Below are positions 52,173-57,391 of a stretch of 64,000 bases of DNA, piece by piece. The notes beneath the pieces were generated by a model that was not told the origin of the DNA, did no database searches, and worked only from the letters and a program-made list of their open reading frames with translations. The stretch is from Fluviicola chungangensis (GTDB lineage Bacteria > Bacteroidota > Bacteroidia > Flavobacteriales_D > Crocinitomicaceae), in the NCBI RefSeq assembly GCF_007558725.1, contig NZ_VLPL01000001.1:664808-728807 (forward strand), read 5' to 3'. How positions within the stretch are numbered: the stretch's first letter is position 1; the number at the start of each line of letters is the position of its first letter. The translations under genes were made by a program, and so were the position numbers.

Positions 52173-52180
52173 TACCTTTG
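52173..52180 (+). promoter_or_regulatory. -7 promoter element TACCTTTG of the B12 operon
   Basis: Exact TAnnTTTG. Transcription would start about 52185, right at the 5' edge of the cobalamin riboswitch, as expected for a riboswitch leader. Confidence 0.6.
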
Positions 52181-52187
52181 CCCCGTT

Positions 52188-52360
52188 TTAGGTTCGATTG
52201 TAAGTTTGCAAAAGACAATAGGGAATTCGGTGAGAATCCGAAACTGTATCTGCAGCTGTAACTCTTATCAAACGGTCTTCATAATATCCACTGTCAGCCG
52301 CGGTTGATGGGAAGGAGAAGTAACCGGAGAGAAGTCAGAATACCTGCCTGAAACGCGAAT
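52188..52360 (+). ncRNA. Cobalamin (adenosylcobalamin-class) riboswitch
   Basis: The conserved core is clear. It comprises AGGGAATTCGGTGAGAATCC (52219-52238), then GAAACTGTATCTGCAGCTGTAA, a CCACTG segment (52288-52293), GGGAAGGAGAAGTAACCGGAG, and the B12 box AGTCAGAATACCTGCCTG (52334-52350). These are the landmark segments of the cobalamin family in the correct order and spacing. It lies between a perfect promoter and a four-gene operon of B12 uptake type, so ligand binding is expected to shut off that operon when the vitamin is plentiful. Confidence 0.95.
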
Positions 52361-52391
52361 GAATGAAGACTTCAGATTAAAGTCGGGTTCG

Positions 52392-52416
52392 AAATGGGAG
52401 GTTCTTCTCCCAATTT
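52392..52416 (+). terminator. Candidate terminator of the B12 riboswitch expression platform
   Basis: TGGGAG pairs with CTCCCA around GTTCTT, with an A/T-rich extension, followed by a T-rich stretch up to 52457. It lies 30-50 nt after the B12 box and before the first start codon, the usual place for the regulatory terminator. The anti-terminator pairing was not worked out. Confidence 0.5.
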
Positions 52417-52475
52417 GTTCTTATTCTCTGATTTTTTCATTTGCTTTTTTACTCACTTTTAAATGCTTAAAGGCA

Positions 52476-53435
52476 ATGAAAAAAATGTTACTTGCAGTTA
52501 GTGTGTGCTGCATCCAATACACACAAGCCCAAACAGTCGTTACTTTTGACGACTTAACACTTGCTCCCAACACGCATTGGGATGGTTCAGATTCCACTTT
52601 AGGATTTACTTCCGGGGGAGTTTATTTCGAAAACTCGTATGATTTTGATTGGGATTACTGGTCCGGTGGATTCATCTACTCCAGTTCAACGGATGTAACT
52701 ACAGCCGGTTATACCAATGACTTTTCCGCATATACCGGAACAGGTGGAAACAGCAGCCAGAATTATGCGATCAATTACGGTGGAACCGGGATTGATTTCG
52801 GAACGGAAAAAGTACTGAGCAGTATTCAACTAACGAATACGACTTATGCAGCTCTTTCCATGCGCGACGGCGACATGTTCGGAAAACAATTCGGTTCTGT
52901 GAACAATGCACAGGGAAATCCGGATGGTACGAACGGGGAAGACTGGTTTCGTCTTTTAATTATTGGGAAAGATGCTCAAAGTAATGTGACCGATACTGTT
53001 ATTTTCTACCTGGCTGATTATCGTTTTGCCAACAACACGGAGGATTACATCGTAGATACCTGGCAAACTGTGGACTTAACTGCACTTGGTGGAGTCCAGT
53101 TTTTGGAATTCGAATTGGAATCATCCGACCACAACGCACAGGGAATCCTGACTCCAGCTTACTTCGCTTTGGACAATATTGTTTACGGAACAGCCGGAAT
53201 GAACACTTTGAATCGTGTAAACCAGGAAGTTTATCCGAATCCGGGAACTGGTAAATTCACCGTAAAATCTCCAAACGGGCAAATCAATGTATACGCATTG
53301 TCGGGAGAATTGATCTTGTCTCAAACAACAAATGGAATCGGGGAAATTGATCTAAGTTCAGTTCAGTCCGGAACATACATCATTGAAACAAGTACTTCCG
53401 AAGGAATTGCAAGAACACACATCAGTAAGATCTAA
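52476..53435 (+). CDS. DUF4465 (BtuH-like) surface protein with T9SS tail
   Basis: The 319-residue protein has a signal peptide (1-19, ending YTQAQ) and a DUF4465 domain (about 25-235). Marks are TVVTFDDLTLAPNTHW, the NTTYAALSMRDGDMFGKQF block, DWFRLLIIGKD, YLADYRFANN and AYFALDNIVYG. The last 70 residues are a T9SS type A sorting domain (VYPNPGTGKFTV ... SGTYIIET). From memory, DUF4465 proteins occur in Bacteroides B12 loci and include cobalamin-binding BtuH. I start at the ATG at 52476; an ATG at 52359 is inside the riboswitch leader. It is immediately followed by the TonB receptor gene. Confidence 0.85.
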   Translation: MKKMLLAVSVCCIQYTQAQTVVTFDDLTLAPNTHWDGSDSTLGFTSGGVYFENSYDFDWDYWSGGFIYSSSTDVTTAGYTNDFSAYTGTGGNSSQNYAINYGGTGIDFGTEKVLSSIQLTNTTYAALSMRDGDMFGKQFGSVNNAQGNPDGTNGEDWFRLLIIGKDAQSNVTDTVIFYLADYRFANNTEDYIVDTWQTVDLTALGGVQFLEFELESSDHNAQGILTPAYFALDNIVYGTAGMNTLNRVNQEVYPNPGTGKFTVKSPNGQINVYALSGELILSQTTNGIGEIDLSSVQSGTYIIETSTSEGIARTHISKI

Positions 53436-55370
53436 TTGTTCCTCAAACTTTACATACCGACCCTTTTGATTATAACCTCTTGTCCGGTATTCGGACAGGA
53501 GGTTAAACCTATTGAAGAAGTTGTTATTTCACCGGTTAACGAGAAGGAAAACAGTATCCGGATTGACTTGTCAAAGGACAAGATCCAAAACAAACTGGCC
53601 AATGACCTGGGGCAAATTCTCAGCTTGCTTCCTGGTCTTCAGGTCAAAAACTACGGAGATGTCGGCGGACTAAAAACCGTCAGTTTTCGAAGCTTGGGTG
53701 CAGCTCATACTGCATTGGTCCAGGATTACTCGCTGGTTTCAACCACGCAAAGCGGTCAGGCAGACCTCAGTTCATTTCCGGTCGATTTCATTGAAAAACT
53801 GGAACTAATCACACTTTCCCCTACCCGAACTGAAATTCCAATCCATGCCAAGCTGGCAGGTGTGGTTGTCAATGTGGAATCCGTTCATTCCTATGTGGGA
53901 ACCAATCAGCGAAACCTCATCCTGGGCGCCCAGGCAGGTTCATTTGATCAATACGAGGGGTATTTGATGCTTCAGAAAAGATCGAAGAAATGGGCGGGAA
54001 CTTTAACCGGTAAGATCCGGTCGTATGGAGGTGCTTATCCATATACGTACCTGAATGGAAATACAACGATTAAAGACCGGAGAGAAAATAATAGCTTGCA
54101 GGAATACTTCGGGACCGCATCGGTGCAGTTTTCACCCAGTCAAAACCACCGGTTTCAACTTCGAATCTCCGGGAATGACTACAAAAAAGACCTGGCAGGG
54201 GCTGTTATTTTCTATAACAGTAATGCTGCACAATATTTAAACGGTTACGGACTGAATGGAACGATAAATCATCAGTTCAAAAAAAATCGCTGGAATGTCT
54301 TCTCTTCACTGAATTATCAAAAAAACAACCTACAGTACCTGGATTCCACCTACCTGAACACACTTGGCTACCTCGATTCGCGTTATTATTCCCGGCAATT
54401 CGATCTGCAGTCACAAGCAGCTTATTCTATTACAGAAAAATGGGGCATCCTGATCGGAAGCTCACTGATATCGGAAGAATTGAAAGGAAAACTACTCGTT
54501 GGAAATCCCTATCGGAACACTTCAGAAAGTGTACTCGGAATCGAATGGAAAGCAATCGGGAAAATTTTGGCCCAAGTTGGCTTACAGGGCGTTTTCGAGA
54601 AACGCGATACTGTACTTAACAGCCAGTGGAACATACTGCCGGCTGTTTCCTGGAGTTTTGACCTTGGAAGCCGGAACAAAATAGGAATGGTATACCGCTA
54701 TACCTGCAGGCAGCCTTCTTTCAATGAATTGTACTATCAACAAATCGGGAATACCAAACTCAAATCGGAAAAGGCACACATCGCTTCCGTGCGTTACGAT
54801 CTGACACTTCCATTTAAAAGAGGAATCTTGCAAACAATGATCCAGCCGTTTTATGCATATGTTTACGATAAGATCCTCGCAATTCCAACCAAAAACCTGT
54901 TCATCTGGAGCATCCAAAACATTGGAATATCCGACGCAGCGGGAGTTGAATTTACGGAATTGATCCAAAAAAAAATGAAGCAGCATACGCTTGGAATGCG
55001 AATCAATTATACTTTCCAATACACGCAAGATATCAGTGATCCAAAAAGTCCGACTTACCGTCACATCTTAAGTTACGCTCCCTTACATTCAGGGAGTGTT
55101 GAACTGGATTACACCTGGAAAAAACTGAGTTTTTTCATTCTGACATCATACCTGGGGGAACGCTACGCATTGAATCAAAACATCCCTGCTAATTTACTGG
55201 AAGACTATTTGTTACTGGATGCAGGTGCTTCATACACTCAAAAATTAAATCAAAGCGAACTGACACTTCGTTTGACGGTCAATAACATAACCAACAAGCA
55301 ATACAATTACATCAATTACTTTGTAATGCCGGGAACTCATTTCAATATCAGACTTCAATATGCGCTATAA
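53436..55370 (+). CDS. btuB: BtuB-like TonB-dependent cobalamin receptor
   Basis: A 644-residue TonB receptor with a signal peptide (about 1-21, ending CPVFGQ). The plug domain contains LGQILSLLPGLQVKNYGDVGGLKTVSFRSLGAAHTALVQDYSL, and an outer-membrane barrel ends in an aromatic/hydrophobic strand (FNIRLQYAL). It has no N-terminal carboxypeptidase-like extension. The cobalamin riboswitch makes corrinoid the likely cargo. The start codon is TTG directly after the DUF4465 stop codon (TAATTG), so translation is probably coupled. The inner-membrane BtuCDF importer is not in this window. Confidence 0.85.
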   Translation: MFLKLYIPTLLIITSCPVFGQEVKPIEEVVISPVNEKENSIRIDLSKDKIQNKLANDLGQILSLLPGLQVKNYGDVGGLKTVSFRSLGAAHTALVQDYSLVSTTQSGQADLSSFPVDFIEKLELITLSPTRTEIPIHAKLAGVVVNVESVHSYVGTNQRNLILGAQAGSFDQYEGYLMLQKRSKKWAGTLTGKIRSYGGAYPYTYLNGNTTIKDRRENNSLQEYFGTASVQFSPSQNHRFQLRISGNDYKKDLAGAVIFYNSNAAQYLNGYGLNGTINHQFKKNRWNVFSSLNYQKNNLQYLDSTYLNTLGYLDSRYYSRQFDLQSQAAYSITEKWGILIGSSLISEELKGKLLVGNPYRNTSESVLGIEWKAIGKILAQVGLQGVFEKRDTVLNSQWNILPAVSWSFDLGSRNKIGMVYRYTCRQPSFNELYYQQIGNTKLKSEKAHIASVRYDLTLPFKRGILQTMIQPFYAYVYDKILAIPTKNLFIWSIQNIGISDAAGVEFTELIQKKMKQHTLGMRINYTFQYTQDISDPKSPTYRHILSYAPLHSGSVELDYTWKKLSFFILTSYLGERYALNQNIPANLLEDYLLLDAGASYTQKLNQSELTLRLTVNNITNKQYNYINYFVMPGTHFNIRLQYAL

Positions 55371-56421
55371 AATTCTTCCCATCGTATTCATCGCTATCCT
55401 CGTTTTTTCCTGCAAAAAGAAAAAAGCAGGCGAACCGGATGCGCCGCAAACCCTTCATCATGGAATACTCGTTTTAAATGAAGGGCTTTTCCAGCAGAAC
55501 AATGCCTCAATGGGATGGTTTAGTTTTTCGGATAATTCCTATACCGGTAATTTCTTTGAACAAAAAACAAACCGCTCATTGGGAGATACCGGCAATGACA
55601 TGAAGAAGTACGGTGGAAAGATCTACGTTATCGTAAATGTTTCCAGCACAATTGAAGTATTGGATGCTTCAACCGGAAACAGCATCACTCAAATTTCGAT
55701 GGTGGCCAATGGAACTCCGAAACAACCGCGCTACGTTGCATTTTACGGACCGAAGGCGTTTATCACTTGCTATGACGGTTACGTCGATGTACTGGATACC
55801 CTCTCTTTGAACATTACAAACCGCATTCCGGTCGGAGCAAATCCGGAAGGACTGGCAATAAGCAATGGAAAACTATTTGTAGCGAACTCGGGAGGTCTGA
55901 ACTCCCCGAATGTTGACAGCACCGTATCCGTCATTGACCTGGGAAATTTGCAAGAGATTACGCGAATTACCGTGGGTAAAAACCCGGGATCCGTCCAAAC
56001 GGATTTGAACGGTGATGTATATGTGATTTCGCGCGGTGATTACGCTTCTGTCCCGTCCCGTATGCACCGCATTGATGCCATCACGAATACATTGGTGCAA
56101 TCCTTTCCATTCGATGCAAGCGGAATCTCCCCCTTCAATTCCAACTTCCTGATCTCGTATCATGATTTCAGTTCGGGAAGCAACCAAATTGCACTATTTG
56201 ATCCCAATACCGAAACAATAATTGATCCTCAATACATTCCGACTTCAGGAATTCAAACGTTATACGGTGTCCAATATTCTGATATGACCAACAGGATCTA
56301 CTGCCTGGATGCAAAAAATTATACCGTAACCGGGCAGGTTCATGTTTTTTCTCCAAACGGTGTTTTTGAAACAAGTTATAACGTAGGGTTAAACCCGGCA
56401 AGTATTTTAATTTATGAATAA
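55360..56421 (+). CDS. BtuG-like YncE/beta-propeller surface lipoprotein
   Basis: A 353-residue lipoprotein with signal ending VFSC (Cys18) followed by KKKKAGEPD. The rest is a YncE/DUF5074-type beta-propeller, with repeated blades such as IEVLDASTGNSITQI, VDVLDTLSLNITNRIPVGANPEGLAI and VSVIDLGNLQEITRITVGKNPGSV. In Bacteroides the homologous BtuG caps BtuB and captures B12 with very high affinity; that is established for the family, while function here is inferred from the riboswitch and neighbours. It overlaps the receptor gene by 11 nt and the next gene by 8 nt. Confidence 0.85.
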   Translation: MRYKILPIVFIAILVFSCKKKKAGEPDAPQTLHHGILVLNEGLFQQNNASMGWFSFSDNSYTGNFFEQKTNRSLGDTGNDMKKYGGKIYVIVNVSSTIEVLDASTGNSITQISMVANGTPKQPRYVAFYGPKAFITCYDGYVDVLDTLSLNITNRIPVGANPEGLAISNGKLFVANSGGLNSPNVDSTVSVIDLGNLQEITRITVGKNPGSVQTDLNGDVYVISRGDYASVPSRMHRIDAITNTLVQSFPFDASGISPFNSNFLISYHDFSSGSNQIALFDPNTETIIDPQYIPTSGIQTLYGVQYSDMTNRIYCLDAKNYTVTGQVHVFSPNGVFETSYNVGLNPASILIYE

Positions 56422-57391
56422 GTTCATCCTCATCCTGGTTTTCGTTCCCGGATTTTTACATGCTCAAAGCTTTCATCCTGCTCCCGGAAATCCCGGTACC
56501 AATGCCATTGGAAAAGACAGTTCCTGTTTTGTTTCCTGGGCAAGCGGCGGAACTGTAACAAGGGGTTATCTCAATATTGCCGATACAACTATCGTGGCAA
56601 GTGGATCCAACAAGGCCAGTTACGGAAACCTGAATTTGGCATTGGGTCCAGCAACAGGATCTATTACCGATGTGCTTTCTTTGGGCGACAGTGGAGTTGC
56701 AACCTTGAGTTTCGATCAGTTTATTATGGATGGACCCGGGTATGATTTTGCGGTTTTTGAAAACGGATTTACGGATGATTATCTTGAAATGGCACACGTA
56801 GAAGTCAGTTCTGATGGAATTCACTTTTTCCGGTTTCCTTCCACCACTGAAATTCCGCTTACACCCCAATCATCCAATGCAAGCTATACCGATTGCAGAA
56901 TGATCGATAACCTGGCAGGGAAATTCCGCCTGGGTTATGGAACTCCTTTTGATTTGAGCGATTTGCCAAACGATCCGGACCTGAATAAATCAGCAGTGAC
57001 GCTGGTTCGCATTATTGACGTAATCGGCTCTATTTCAGGACACGTAACGACGGATCAGTACGGAACCGTAATCAATGATCCGTATCCGACCGCTTTCGAA
57101 TCCGGAGGGTTCGACCTGGAAGCAATCGGGATCATCAATGGAACACTCGGATTAACCGAATTGGAATTATTGGAAGTACATGCATTTCCAAATCCCACAA
57201 CCGATCAACTGCAGGTTACACTTGCCGGCCGGGCTTACTTAAATTTCTATTCTCCGGAAGGAAGACTGCTTCTTGCACTGGAACACACAGATTCAAGCCA
57301 CATTTCCTTACACGAATTTGCTGCCGGTGTGTACCATTTACTGGTAACCCAAAACGGTAAGCAACGGCATTTGGACATTTTAAAGAAGTAG
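56414..57391 (+). CDS. T9SS-exported surface protein of the B12 operon
   Basis: The 325-residue protein has a signal peptide (1-18, ending FLHAQ). A beta-sandwich-like domain (about 30-240) contains SLGDSGVATLSFDQFIMDGPGYDFAVFENGF and VTLVRIIDVIG. A T9SS type A sorting domain closes the protein (FPNPTTDQLQVTL ... AAGVYHLLV). The first domain resembles cell-surface proteins found beside DUF4465 in B12-regulated loci. It may be a second B12-binding or accessory surface protein; no function is demonstrated. It is the last gene of the operon and overlaps the BtuG-like gene by 8 nt. Confidence 0.8.
   Translation: MNKFILILVFVPGFLHAQSFHPAPGNPGTNAIGKDSSCFVSWASGGTVTRGYLNIADTTIVASGSNKASYGNLNLALGPATGSITDVLSLGDSGVATLSFDQFIMDGPGYDFAVFENGFTDDYLEMAHVEVSSDGIHFFRFPSTTEIPLTPQSSNASYTDCRMIDNLAGKFRLGYGTPFDLSDLPNDPDLNKSAVTLVRIIDVIGSISGHVTTDQYGTVINDPYPTAFESGGFDLEAIGIINGTLGLTELELLEVHAFPNPTTDQLQVTLAGRAYLNFYSPEGRLLLALEHTDSSHISLHEFAAGVYHLLVTQNGKQRHLDILKK

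Follow-up and report, generated by a model that had tools for sequence, protein, structure and literature searches.

A cobalamin-riboswitch operon of Fluviicola chungangensis encodes two T9SS-tailed proteins, one of them a likely distant relative of BtuH

How might a bacterium outside the gut catch vitamin B12 at its surface, and which of its proteins would do the catching? Vitamin B12 shapes microbial communities, and its surface capture has been worked out mainly for lipoproteins of gut Bacteroides. The question is raised by a 64,000-nucleotide stretch of the Fluviicola chungangensis genome (assembly GCF_007558725.1, contig NZ_VLPL01000001.1, positions 664,808 to 728,807 of the forward strand; hereafter 'the window', whose numbering is used throughout), in which a cobalamin riboswitch is followed by four genes. 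An initial annotation, made from the letters alone, had described this locus as an operon for B12 capture in a non-gut lineage, with part of the machinery sorted by the type IX secretion system (T9SS) rather than as lipoproteins. The four-gene B12 operon is real and conserved. Its last protein, to which no role had been assigned and which indeed lacks a Pfam function, can now be given a likely one: its N-terminal domain appears, from sequence profiles and a predicted structure, to be distantly related to the domain with which BtuH binds B12, and its gene lies in the BtuH slot after BtuG, a place that a lipid-anchored BtuH can take in other Bacteroidota. We estimate a probability of about 0.78 that the operon as a whole is repressed by cobalamin and captures cobamides at or beyond the cell surface, through two T9SS-tailed proteins that hand them to BtuG and BtuB.

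The elements of the operon are as follows.

52173..52180, + strand: TAnnTTTG box (TACCTTTG), a likely -7 promoter element, read directly.
52173..52365, + strand: cobalamin riboswitch aptamer (RF00174, 93.1 bits).
52395..52412, + strand: terminator-like hairpin, TGGGAG..CTCCCA followed by a T-rich stretch; a possible, weakly indicated expression platform.
52476..53435, + strand: gene 1, a DUF4465 (BtuJ-type) protein with a T9SS type A tail (PF14717, 168.1 bits; TIGR04183, 40.9 bits).
53151..53165, + strand: TPAYF, the HI loop of gene 1, which by alignment to BtuJ1 holds the B12-contacting tyrosine of the DUF4465 family (role as given in the accessible text of PMC13398666).
53229..53423, + strand: T9SS type A sorting domain of gene 1 (TIGR04183, residues 291-355 of a 358-residue open reading frame).
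53436..55370, + strand: gene 2, BtuB, a TonB-dependent B12 receptor with a TTG start (8blw_A, E 5.4e-56).
55360..56421, + strand: gene 3, BtuG, a beta-propeller lipoprotein (8blw_B, E 1e-67; DUF5074; lipobox LVFSC, by eye).
56414..57391, + strand: gene 4, BtuH-like domain followed by a T9SS type A tail (from profiles, predicted structure and TIGR04183).
56762..56770, + strand: N117-x-F119 of gene 4, aligned with the BtuH2 B12 contacts Asn399 and Phe401.
57185..57385, + strand: T9SS type A sorting domain of gene 4 (TIGR04183, 24.9 bits, residues 258-324; fold match to 8qb1).

The succession proposed initially (riboswitch, DUF4465 gene with a T9SS tail, TonB receptor, propeller lipoprotein, second T9SS-tailed gene) was borne out by Rfam, by Pfam and NCBIfam, and by solved relatives. 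The covariance search recovered the riboswitch as a full-length match (positions 1-189 of 189, E 7.8e-22, against a gathering score of 31.5), which was the sole Rfam match at gathering threshold across the 64-kb window. The junctions between the genes had been given sizes of 0, 11 and 8 nt, and these sizes hold in the coordinates of the open reading frames; only the first is a gap, and the 11-nt and 8-nt junctions are overlaps, not spacers. The operon's upstream neighbours lie on the opposite strand, and a MarR-type regulator (by Pfam) follows downstream on the same strand. Within the leader, the TAnnTTTG box, which we take to be the Bacteroidota -7 consensus, recurs at this position, give or take 2 nt, in 15 of the 20 loci compared. 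The hairpin behind the aptamer makes a weaker candidate for a functional element, since terminator-like sites are not commoner than chance (4 in the scan, against 6.1 in shuffles); a separate hairpin search gave a hairpin in six of the 20 loci, at a comparable position in four. For gene 1, the start at ATG 52476 is likelier than that at ATG 52359, because the longer frame of 358 residues begins within the riboswitch and because a stretch resembling a signal peptide (by eye) follows the later ATG.

Apart from a near-miss to the T9SS tail, gene 4 has no Pfam domain, and a profile of the full-length protein (A1), run over 395 Bacteroidota genomes, was swamped by T9SS tails and was replaced by a profile of 26 N-terminal domains (A2). 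A2 has one match in the PDB (E 1e-4): residues 410-497 of chain 8blw_B, which belong to the BtuH domain of a BtuGH fusion. Over the same 395 genomes it found 45 strong carriers and seven weak ones; four of the weak matches are lipoproteins that, combined into one profile, prove to be BtuH (8blw_B, E 8.3e-85; 7biz_A, E 6.4e-59), three of which follow BtuB and BtuG in the same locus, and the others are an OmpA-like lipoprotein (by eye) and two proteins of no clear identity. The reverse profile, built from BtuH (A4), found 11 BtuH genomes and five more where it picked up the gene-4 homologue. Direct profile-profile comparison of gene 4 with BtuH by hhalign gave E 1.3e-7 for ten deep members and 1.9e-6 for all 44, against E 0.05 to 0.8 in ten control comparisons with other operon families. 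Strong gene-4 carriers and true BtuH occur together in none of the 395 genomes, a result not used as evidence since only about 1.3 such genomes are expected by chance.

Structure prediction, carried out on the N-terminal domain with AlphaFold2, gave a confident model (predicted local distance difference test 89.3, predicted template modelling score 0.90), and its top three Foldseek matches among 350,542 PDB chains were the B12-binding BtuH chains 8blw_B, 7biz_B and 7biz_A, each at probability 1.00. Long glycosidase matches of the whole gene-4 chain were rejected (template modelling score about 0.2), only the T9SS tail being convincing in that search. The contacts of BtuH2 with B12 are given in the accessible text of PMC8941943 as Gln333, Asn399, Phe401, His476, Tyr510, Trp511, Trp577 and Leu578. 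Asn399 and Phe401 (residues counted in the 7biz chain) form a GNAF motif that aligns with FENGF in gene 4, where N117 is kept in 44 of 44 aligned members and F119 in 42 of 44. The alignment reaches three BtuH2 contacts, two of which thus fall on the conserved N-x-F. A broader comparison covered 113 distinct proteins, of which the pattern caught 108, and 107 of these have the contact asparagine; loci from a scan of named genomes are excluded from this motif count because that scan itself used a FEN-containing peptide pattern. A BtuH-like role is proposed for gene 4 because the gene-4 profile finds BtuH and the BtuH profile finds gene 4, and because BtuH chains take the first three places among the structural matches; on the same comparisons B12 binding by the protein may be expected.

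The genomic surroundings of gene 4 were then compared across relatives. Of 120 genomes from the family, 96 carry it and 82 carry DUF4465; locus context was taken for 79 of the 95 other carriers, which with the window makes 80 loci. DUF4465, BtuB, BtuG and gene 4 are contiguous and in the same order in 51 of these (the window included), four further loci have all four genes with gene 4 more than 400 nt from BtuG, and the remainder lack a part, in some cases at a contig end. A scan of named genomes, one per species, returned at least 561 relatives of gene 4, of which the best 80 were examined, partly from the same species as the family set and in some cases from the same genomes (for example L230 and L255). 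BtuB and/or BtuG lie on the same strand in 60 of these 80 stretches, from Lentimicrobium, Flavobacterium, Winogradskyella, Aequorivita and Chitinophagales among others, and neither was found in the other 20. Culturable relatives that carry the locus include Brumimicrobium oceani and Lishizhenia tianjinensis. The locus L230 (CP034120.1) is named Glaciecola amylolytica, a label that looks wrong because its gene-4 domain is 79% identical to that of the window and the whole operon is present; the labels Chryseobacterium gleum and Chitinophaga pinensis, on metagenome-assembled genomes (MAGs) in the same set, look doubtful as well. As to the lineage, the description as non-gut agrees with what was found: it looks free-living, and the named relatives with gene 4 include Fluviicola MAGs.

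A cobalamin riboswitch occurs in 41 of 49 distinct Rfam-scanned loci with gene 4 (17 of 17; 9 of 9 new ones, a tenth, L255, repeating L048; 10 of 10; and 5 of 13, this last subset having been picked to include loci without BtuB or BtuG and distant relatives). Of the eight loci without a riboswitch, L132 has both BtuB and BtuG, and neither was seen in the stretches of the other seven. In five loci, two of them nearly identical, the gene-4 domain is fused with DUF4465 and a single T9SS tail, ahead of BtuB. Gene 4 has moved in two genomes of the window's genus. Their DUF4465-BtuB-BtuG operons (L319, L320) lack it and have riboswitches of their own, at 91.5 and 84.5 bits. The gene itself belongs to a different locus that is also headed by a cobalamin riboswitch (33.6 bits in one genome and 43.0 in the other, the threshold being 31.5); there it follows a thioesterase-like gene in L041 and, in L040, both a CWC-like gene and a thioesterase-like one. 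Two other arrangements may be recorded here. In L126, a DUF6580 membrane protein (L126:2319-2891; L126:2978-3100) stands ahead of gene 4, behind a cobalamin riboswitch of low score (37.3 bits), and is possibly part of a B12-related transporter. At L283:5195-6487 a CWC-like protein and gene 4 with its T9SS tail share a single open frame, owing either to a true fusion or to a missing stop.

Several observations weigh against this reading of gene 4. Two of them, the folds ranked after BtuH and the match to a Leptospira protein, speak for a different explanation, in which gene 4 travels with the operon as a structural partner or, as a glycan- or adhesin-like jelly roll, binds some other ligand. 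The BtuH matches in Foldseek are loose (E 1.2e-3 to 2.5e-3, template modelling scores 0.40-0.45, root-mean-square deviation 10-12), and below them discoidin and carbohydrate-binding-module folds are prominent. The alignment with BtuH spans only about 50-100 residues; the 34 near members by themselves give E 8.3e-5, and a global alignment is not significant (E 0.88). Gln333 falls on a position that is variable in the deep-set alignment (by eye Q, N, E, S or T in the near family), and His476, Tyr510, Trp511, Trp577 and Leu578 fall outside the locally aligned region. The OmpA-like lipoprotein that matches A2 weakly (L116) has no BtuB or BtuG match in its stretch, and gene 4 itself stands alone, with no Rfam riboswitch in the stretch, in three g18 genomes (L223, L225, L228) and in L200. 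Finally, 29 of 44 gene-4 family domains match, at best with E 2.7e-13, the NCBIfam model NF033170, which describes LIC_13355, a lipoprotein of Leptospira, although the window's own domain does not reach E 0.01 against it, and that protein has been reported, in the accessible text of PMC11891782, as an adhesin that binds laminin and plasminogen. Against such an explanation stand the persistent linkage of gene 4 to BtuB and BtuG, cobalamin riboswitches and DUF4465 (fusions and the move to another riboswitch operon included), the B12-binding BtuH chains as its closest folds, and the asparagine at a B12-contact position in every aligned member. The Leptospira protein, moreover, was made insoluble and then refolded, according to the accessible text of PMC11891782, whose main text never mentions B12, cobalamin or TonB. 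A gene 4 that does not bind B12 is thus held to be distinctly unlikely, and a role as a BtuH-like B12 binder is preferred.

Gene 1 matches PF14717 far above its cut-off of 25, its nearest solved chains are BtuJ1 (9qpm, 9fct; E 1e-19) and then D5EK51 (9hmu), and it keeps both the TPAYF loop and a TNTTY stretch when aligned to BtuJ1; TPxY is present in 57 of the 58 DUF4465 loci of the family and a TNTTY-like pattern in 39. By sequence it is a BtuJ-type binder, for which B12 binding is predicted. DUF4465 is the BtuJ family and not, as the comparison with BtuH in the initial annotation would suggest, part of the BtuH one (PMC12751083, PMC13398666, accessible text of both); the second of these sources describes the HI-loop motif with its B12-contacting tyrosine as a family feature and reports that a DUF4465 protein of Fluviicola taffensis binds B12.

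T9SS-tailed DUF4465 proteins are likewise already known, and half of the claimed novelty is therefore in print. This follows from a published count of IPR026444, which we take to be the T9SS tail. In the accessible text of PMC12751083 that entry is assigned to 229 of 824 DUF4465 proteins and IPR013424 to 88, both being termed C-terminal extracellular targeting motifs, and the family overall is said to use several anchors. What stands of the earlier interpretation is a riboswitch-headed surface-capture operon with two T9SS-tailed accessory proteins; the novelty of the tailed DUF4465 does not. The new part of the finding is the identity of gene 4 as a BtuH relative, for which no prior description was found: the open-licence literature searched, which omits most subscription journals, held no description of gene 4 and nothing on BtuH and T9SS together.

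The best solved relative of gene 2 is BtuB1 of Bacteroides thetaiotaomicron, and its score against the BtuB equivalog model TIGR01779 is below cut-off (62.7 against 599.7 bits); the best solved relative of gene 3, which adjoins gene 2, is BtuG1. Two further propeller arrangements were seen in relatives. A second BtuG-like propeller, T9SS-tailed and of 428-431 residues, lies between BtuG and gene 4 in L251, L254, L268, L269 and L277, and a T9SS-tailed protein of 757-759 residues lies beside lipid-anchored BtuH genes in L117 (5592-7871), L119 and L120, the L117 member of this class containing a full DUF5074 propeller (E 1.6e-120).

If the tails of genes 1 and 4 were non-functional as T9SS signals, both proteins would stay in the periplasm. 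The gene-4 tail gives some opening to this idea: by Pfam it scores 24.1 bits, just short of the cut-off of 27. Both tails nonetheless pass TIGR04183 (40.9 and 24.9 bits, at an NCBIfam cut-off of 23), as the initial annotation would have it, and the C-terminal part of gene 4 superposes on a solved T9SS C-terminal domain (8qb1) with a root-mean-square deviation of 1.3. A T9SS-tail profile of our own finds a tail in 78 of 79 loci with a recognised gene 4, a circular count, since the families themselves supplied the sequences of the profile. TIGR04183 serves as an independent test: with E-values no higher than 0.001 it matches 21 of 22 gene-4 proteins and 16 of 19 DUF4465 proteins, three of these 19 being short lipoproteins. 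The T9SS translocon gene SprA is present in the genome (2393 bits). Retention in the periplasm is accordingly considered highly improbable. The signal peptides of genes 1 and 4 were judged by eye, as was the gene-4 protein of the window, in which no lipobox was seen and the T9SS tail is present.

The anchor of the DUF4465 protein has changed within the family. In genus g2 the same slot is occupied by a short lipoprotein without a tail (L052, L222, L224, L226); in nine of the ten g2 genomes that have DUF4465 its open frame is 247-268 residues long, and gene 4 there keeps its tail. A tree of 89 DUF4465 domains, in which these lipoproteins nest among tailed proteins, requires three changes between tail and lipid anchor (the starred branches force two), and none of 500 shuffles was as low; the tool flags long branches and unsettled bootstrap for this tree, and its anchor labels rest on our own tail profile. 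The lipobox pattern is loose, also flagging some tailed gene-4 proteins, and was relied on only for DUF4465 proteins without a tail. The genus thus offers, with the rest of its operon unchanged, a natural comparison of two anchoring routes. In nine loci (L053, L177, L210, L212, L213, L215, L216, L218, L220) the slot holds another T9SS-tailed protein with WVG/YVG repeats, of which Pfam recognises only the tail in L053. These replacement proteins are of 508-579 residues with repeats around YYVGxGPDTAV (L053:10099-11649, L212:2228-3904 and seven further loci), and a repeat of that type is also fused to gene 4 in L282 and L285.

The genome (4.27 Mb in 19 contigs) has one DUF4465 gene and two cobalamin riboswitches. 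Its host probably uses B12, because a B12-dependent methionine synthase domain and methylmalonyl-CoA mutase are present; it also has FecCD-type permeases, to which no tie to B12 was made. The second riboswitch (G000:C5:56848-56988, - strand, the same as L034:16849-16989; 67.2 bits) heads a cysteine-rich CWC gene (PF14375), a gene that is presumably thioesterase-like and a small gene without a Pfam match, and in two relatives gene 4 sits in an operon of this kind.

From the riboswitch, the gene identities, the tails, the conserved order, the remote relation to BtuH and the T9SS translocon gene, all read by sequence and structure comparison, we infer B12 binding by gene 4, handover to BtuG, a surface or secreted location, and repression by B12. 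Drawn by analogy with the BtuBG lid model (accessible text of PMC10404256) and the work on BtuJ, the mechanism would run as follows. When B12 is scarce, the riboswitch would let the four genes be expressed; the products of genes 1 and 4 would leave by Sec and, in a second step that depends on the type A tails at their C-termini, by T9SS (type A tails use the PorV shuttle, according to the accessible text of PMC12618676), and would be displayed on the surface or released. Cobamides that they bind outside the cell would then be passed on to BtuG, the lipoprotein that forms a lid on BtuB, and closure of the lid would pass B12 to BtuB for import with TonB energy.

The final location of the tailed proteins, attached or free, cannot be read from sequence, and they may instead diffuse in the medium as scavengers of B12, act at a distance and return to BtuG, as has been proposed for BtuJ on B. 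thetaiotaomicron vesicles. T9SS substrates may indeed be released as well as surface-attached (PMC12618676, PMC10202324), and BtuJ of B. thetaiotaomicron delivers B12 from vesicles (PMC12751083; accessible text in each case). Loss to neighbours would presumably be costly, and BtuG remains a lipoprotein; release of this kind is judged unlikely, if less so than a gene 4 without B12 binding. Capture at or beyond the cell surface, with transfer to BtuG and BtuB, is the course we favour.

For this freshwater host, two likely B12-catching surface proteins would thus be exported by a secretion machine, where gut bacteria use a lipid tether, and the same capture parts recur in other Bacteroidota with T9SS-sorted binders. 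A domain without a Pfam entry, with its many relatives in a one-genome-per-species collection, gains a testable role. A wider proposal can be put forward tentatively, at rather less than even odds: that gene 4 founds an unrecognised, Bacteroidota-wide family of T9SS-borne B12 binders related to BtuH, that the T9SS form is the general and perhaps older one from which the lipid-anchored BtuH and BtuJ of the gut are derived, and that LIC_13355 too is a B12 accessory. Gut Bacteroides are not known to have a T9SS. Were the proposal true, other surface proteins with the gene-4 domain, the Leptospira one among them, would also be accessories of B12 uptake. NCBI names the nearest model after a Leptospira lipoprotein that has been studied as an adhesin, a name that may mislead as to function.

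Among known systems, the LIC_13355 family lipoprotein of Leptospira shares with gene 4 the model that matches most of the family's domains; it is a lipoprotein and a reported laminin and plasminogen binder, whereas gene 4 is T9SS-tailed. With BtuH2 and the BtuGH fusion of B. thetaiotaomicron (7biz, 8blw), gene 4 has in common a related jelly-roll domain, the N-x-F contact motif and the slot after BtuB and BtuG; the sequence similarity is remote, Gln333 is not conserved, the C-terminal corrin contacts are not alignable, and gene 4 has a T9SS tail in place of a lipobox and is without the PKD domain (by Pfam). The BtuB1-BtuG1 pair (8blw) is represented here by both partners, adjacent and with the propeller a lipoprotein, but the BtuG of the window has no fused BtuH domain. 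The IPR026444-bearing DUF4465 proteins are identical in architecture to gene 1, although the accessible text of PMC12751083 gives them as a count, with no such operon and no gene 4. Finally, BtuJ1 and BtuJ2 of B. thetaiotaomicron share with gene 1 the DUF4465 domain (PF14717), the TPxY loop and a riboswitch operon with BtuB and BtuG; the protein of the window carries a T9SS tail instead of their type of lipid anchor, and its gene leads the operon.

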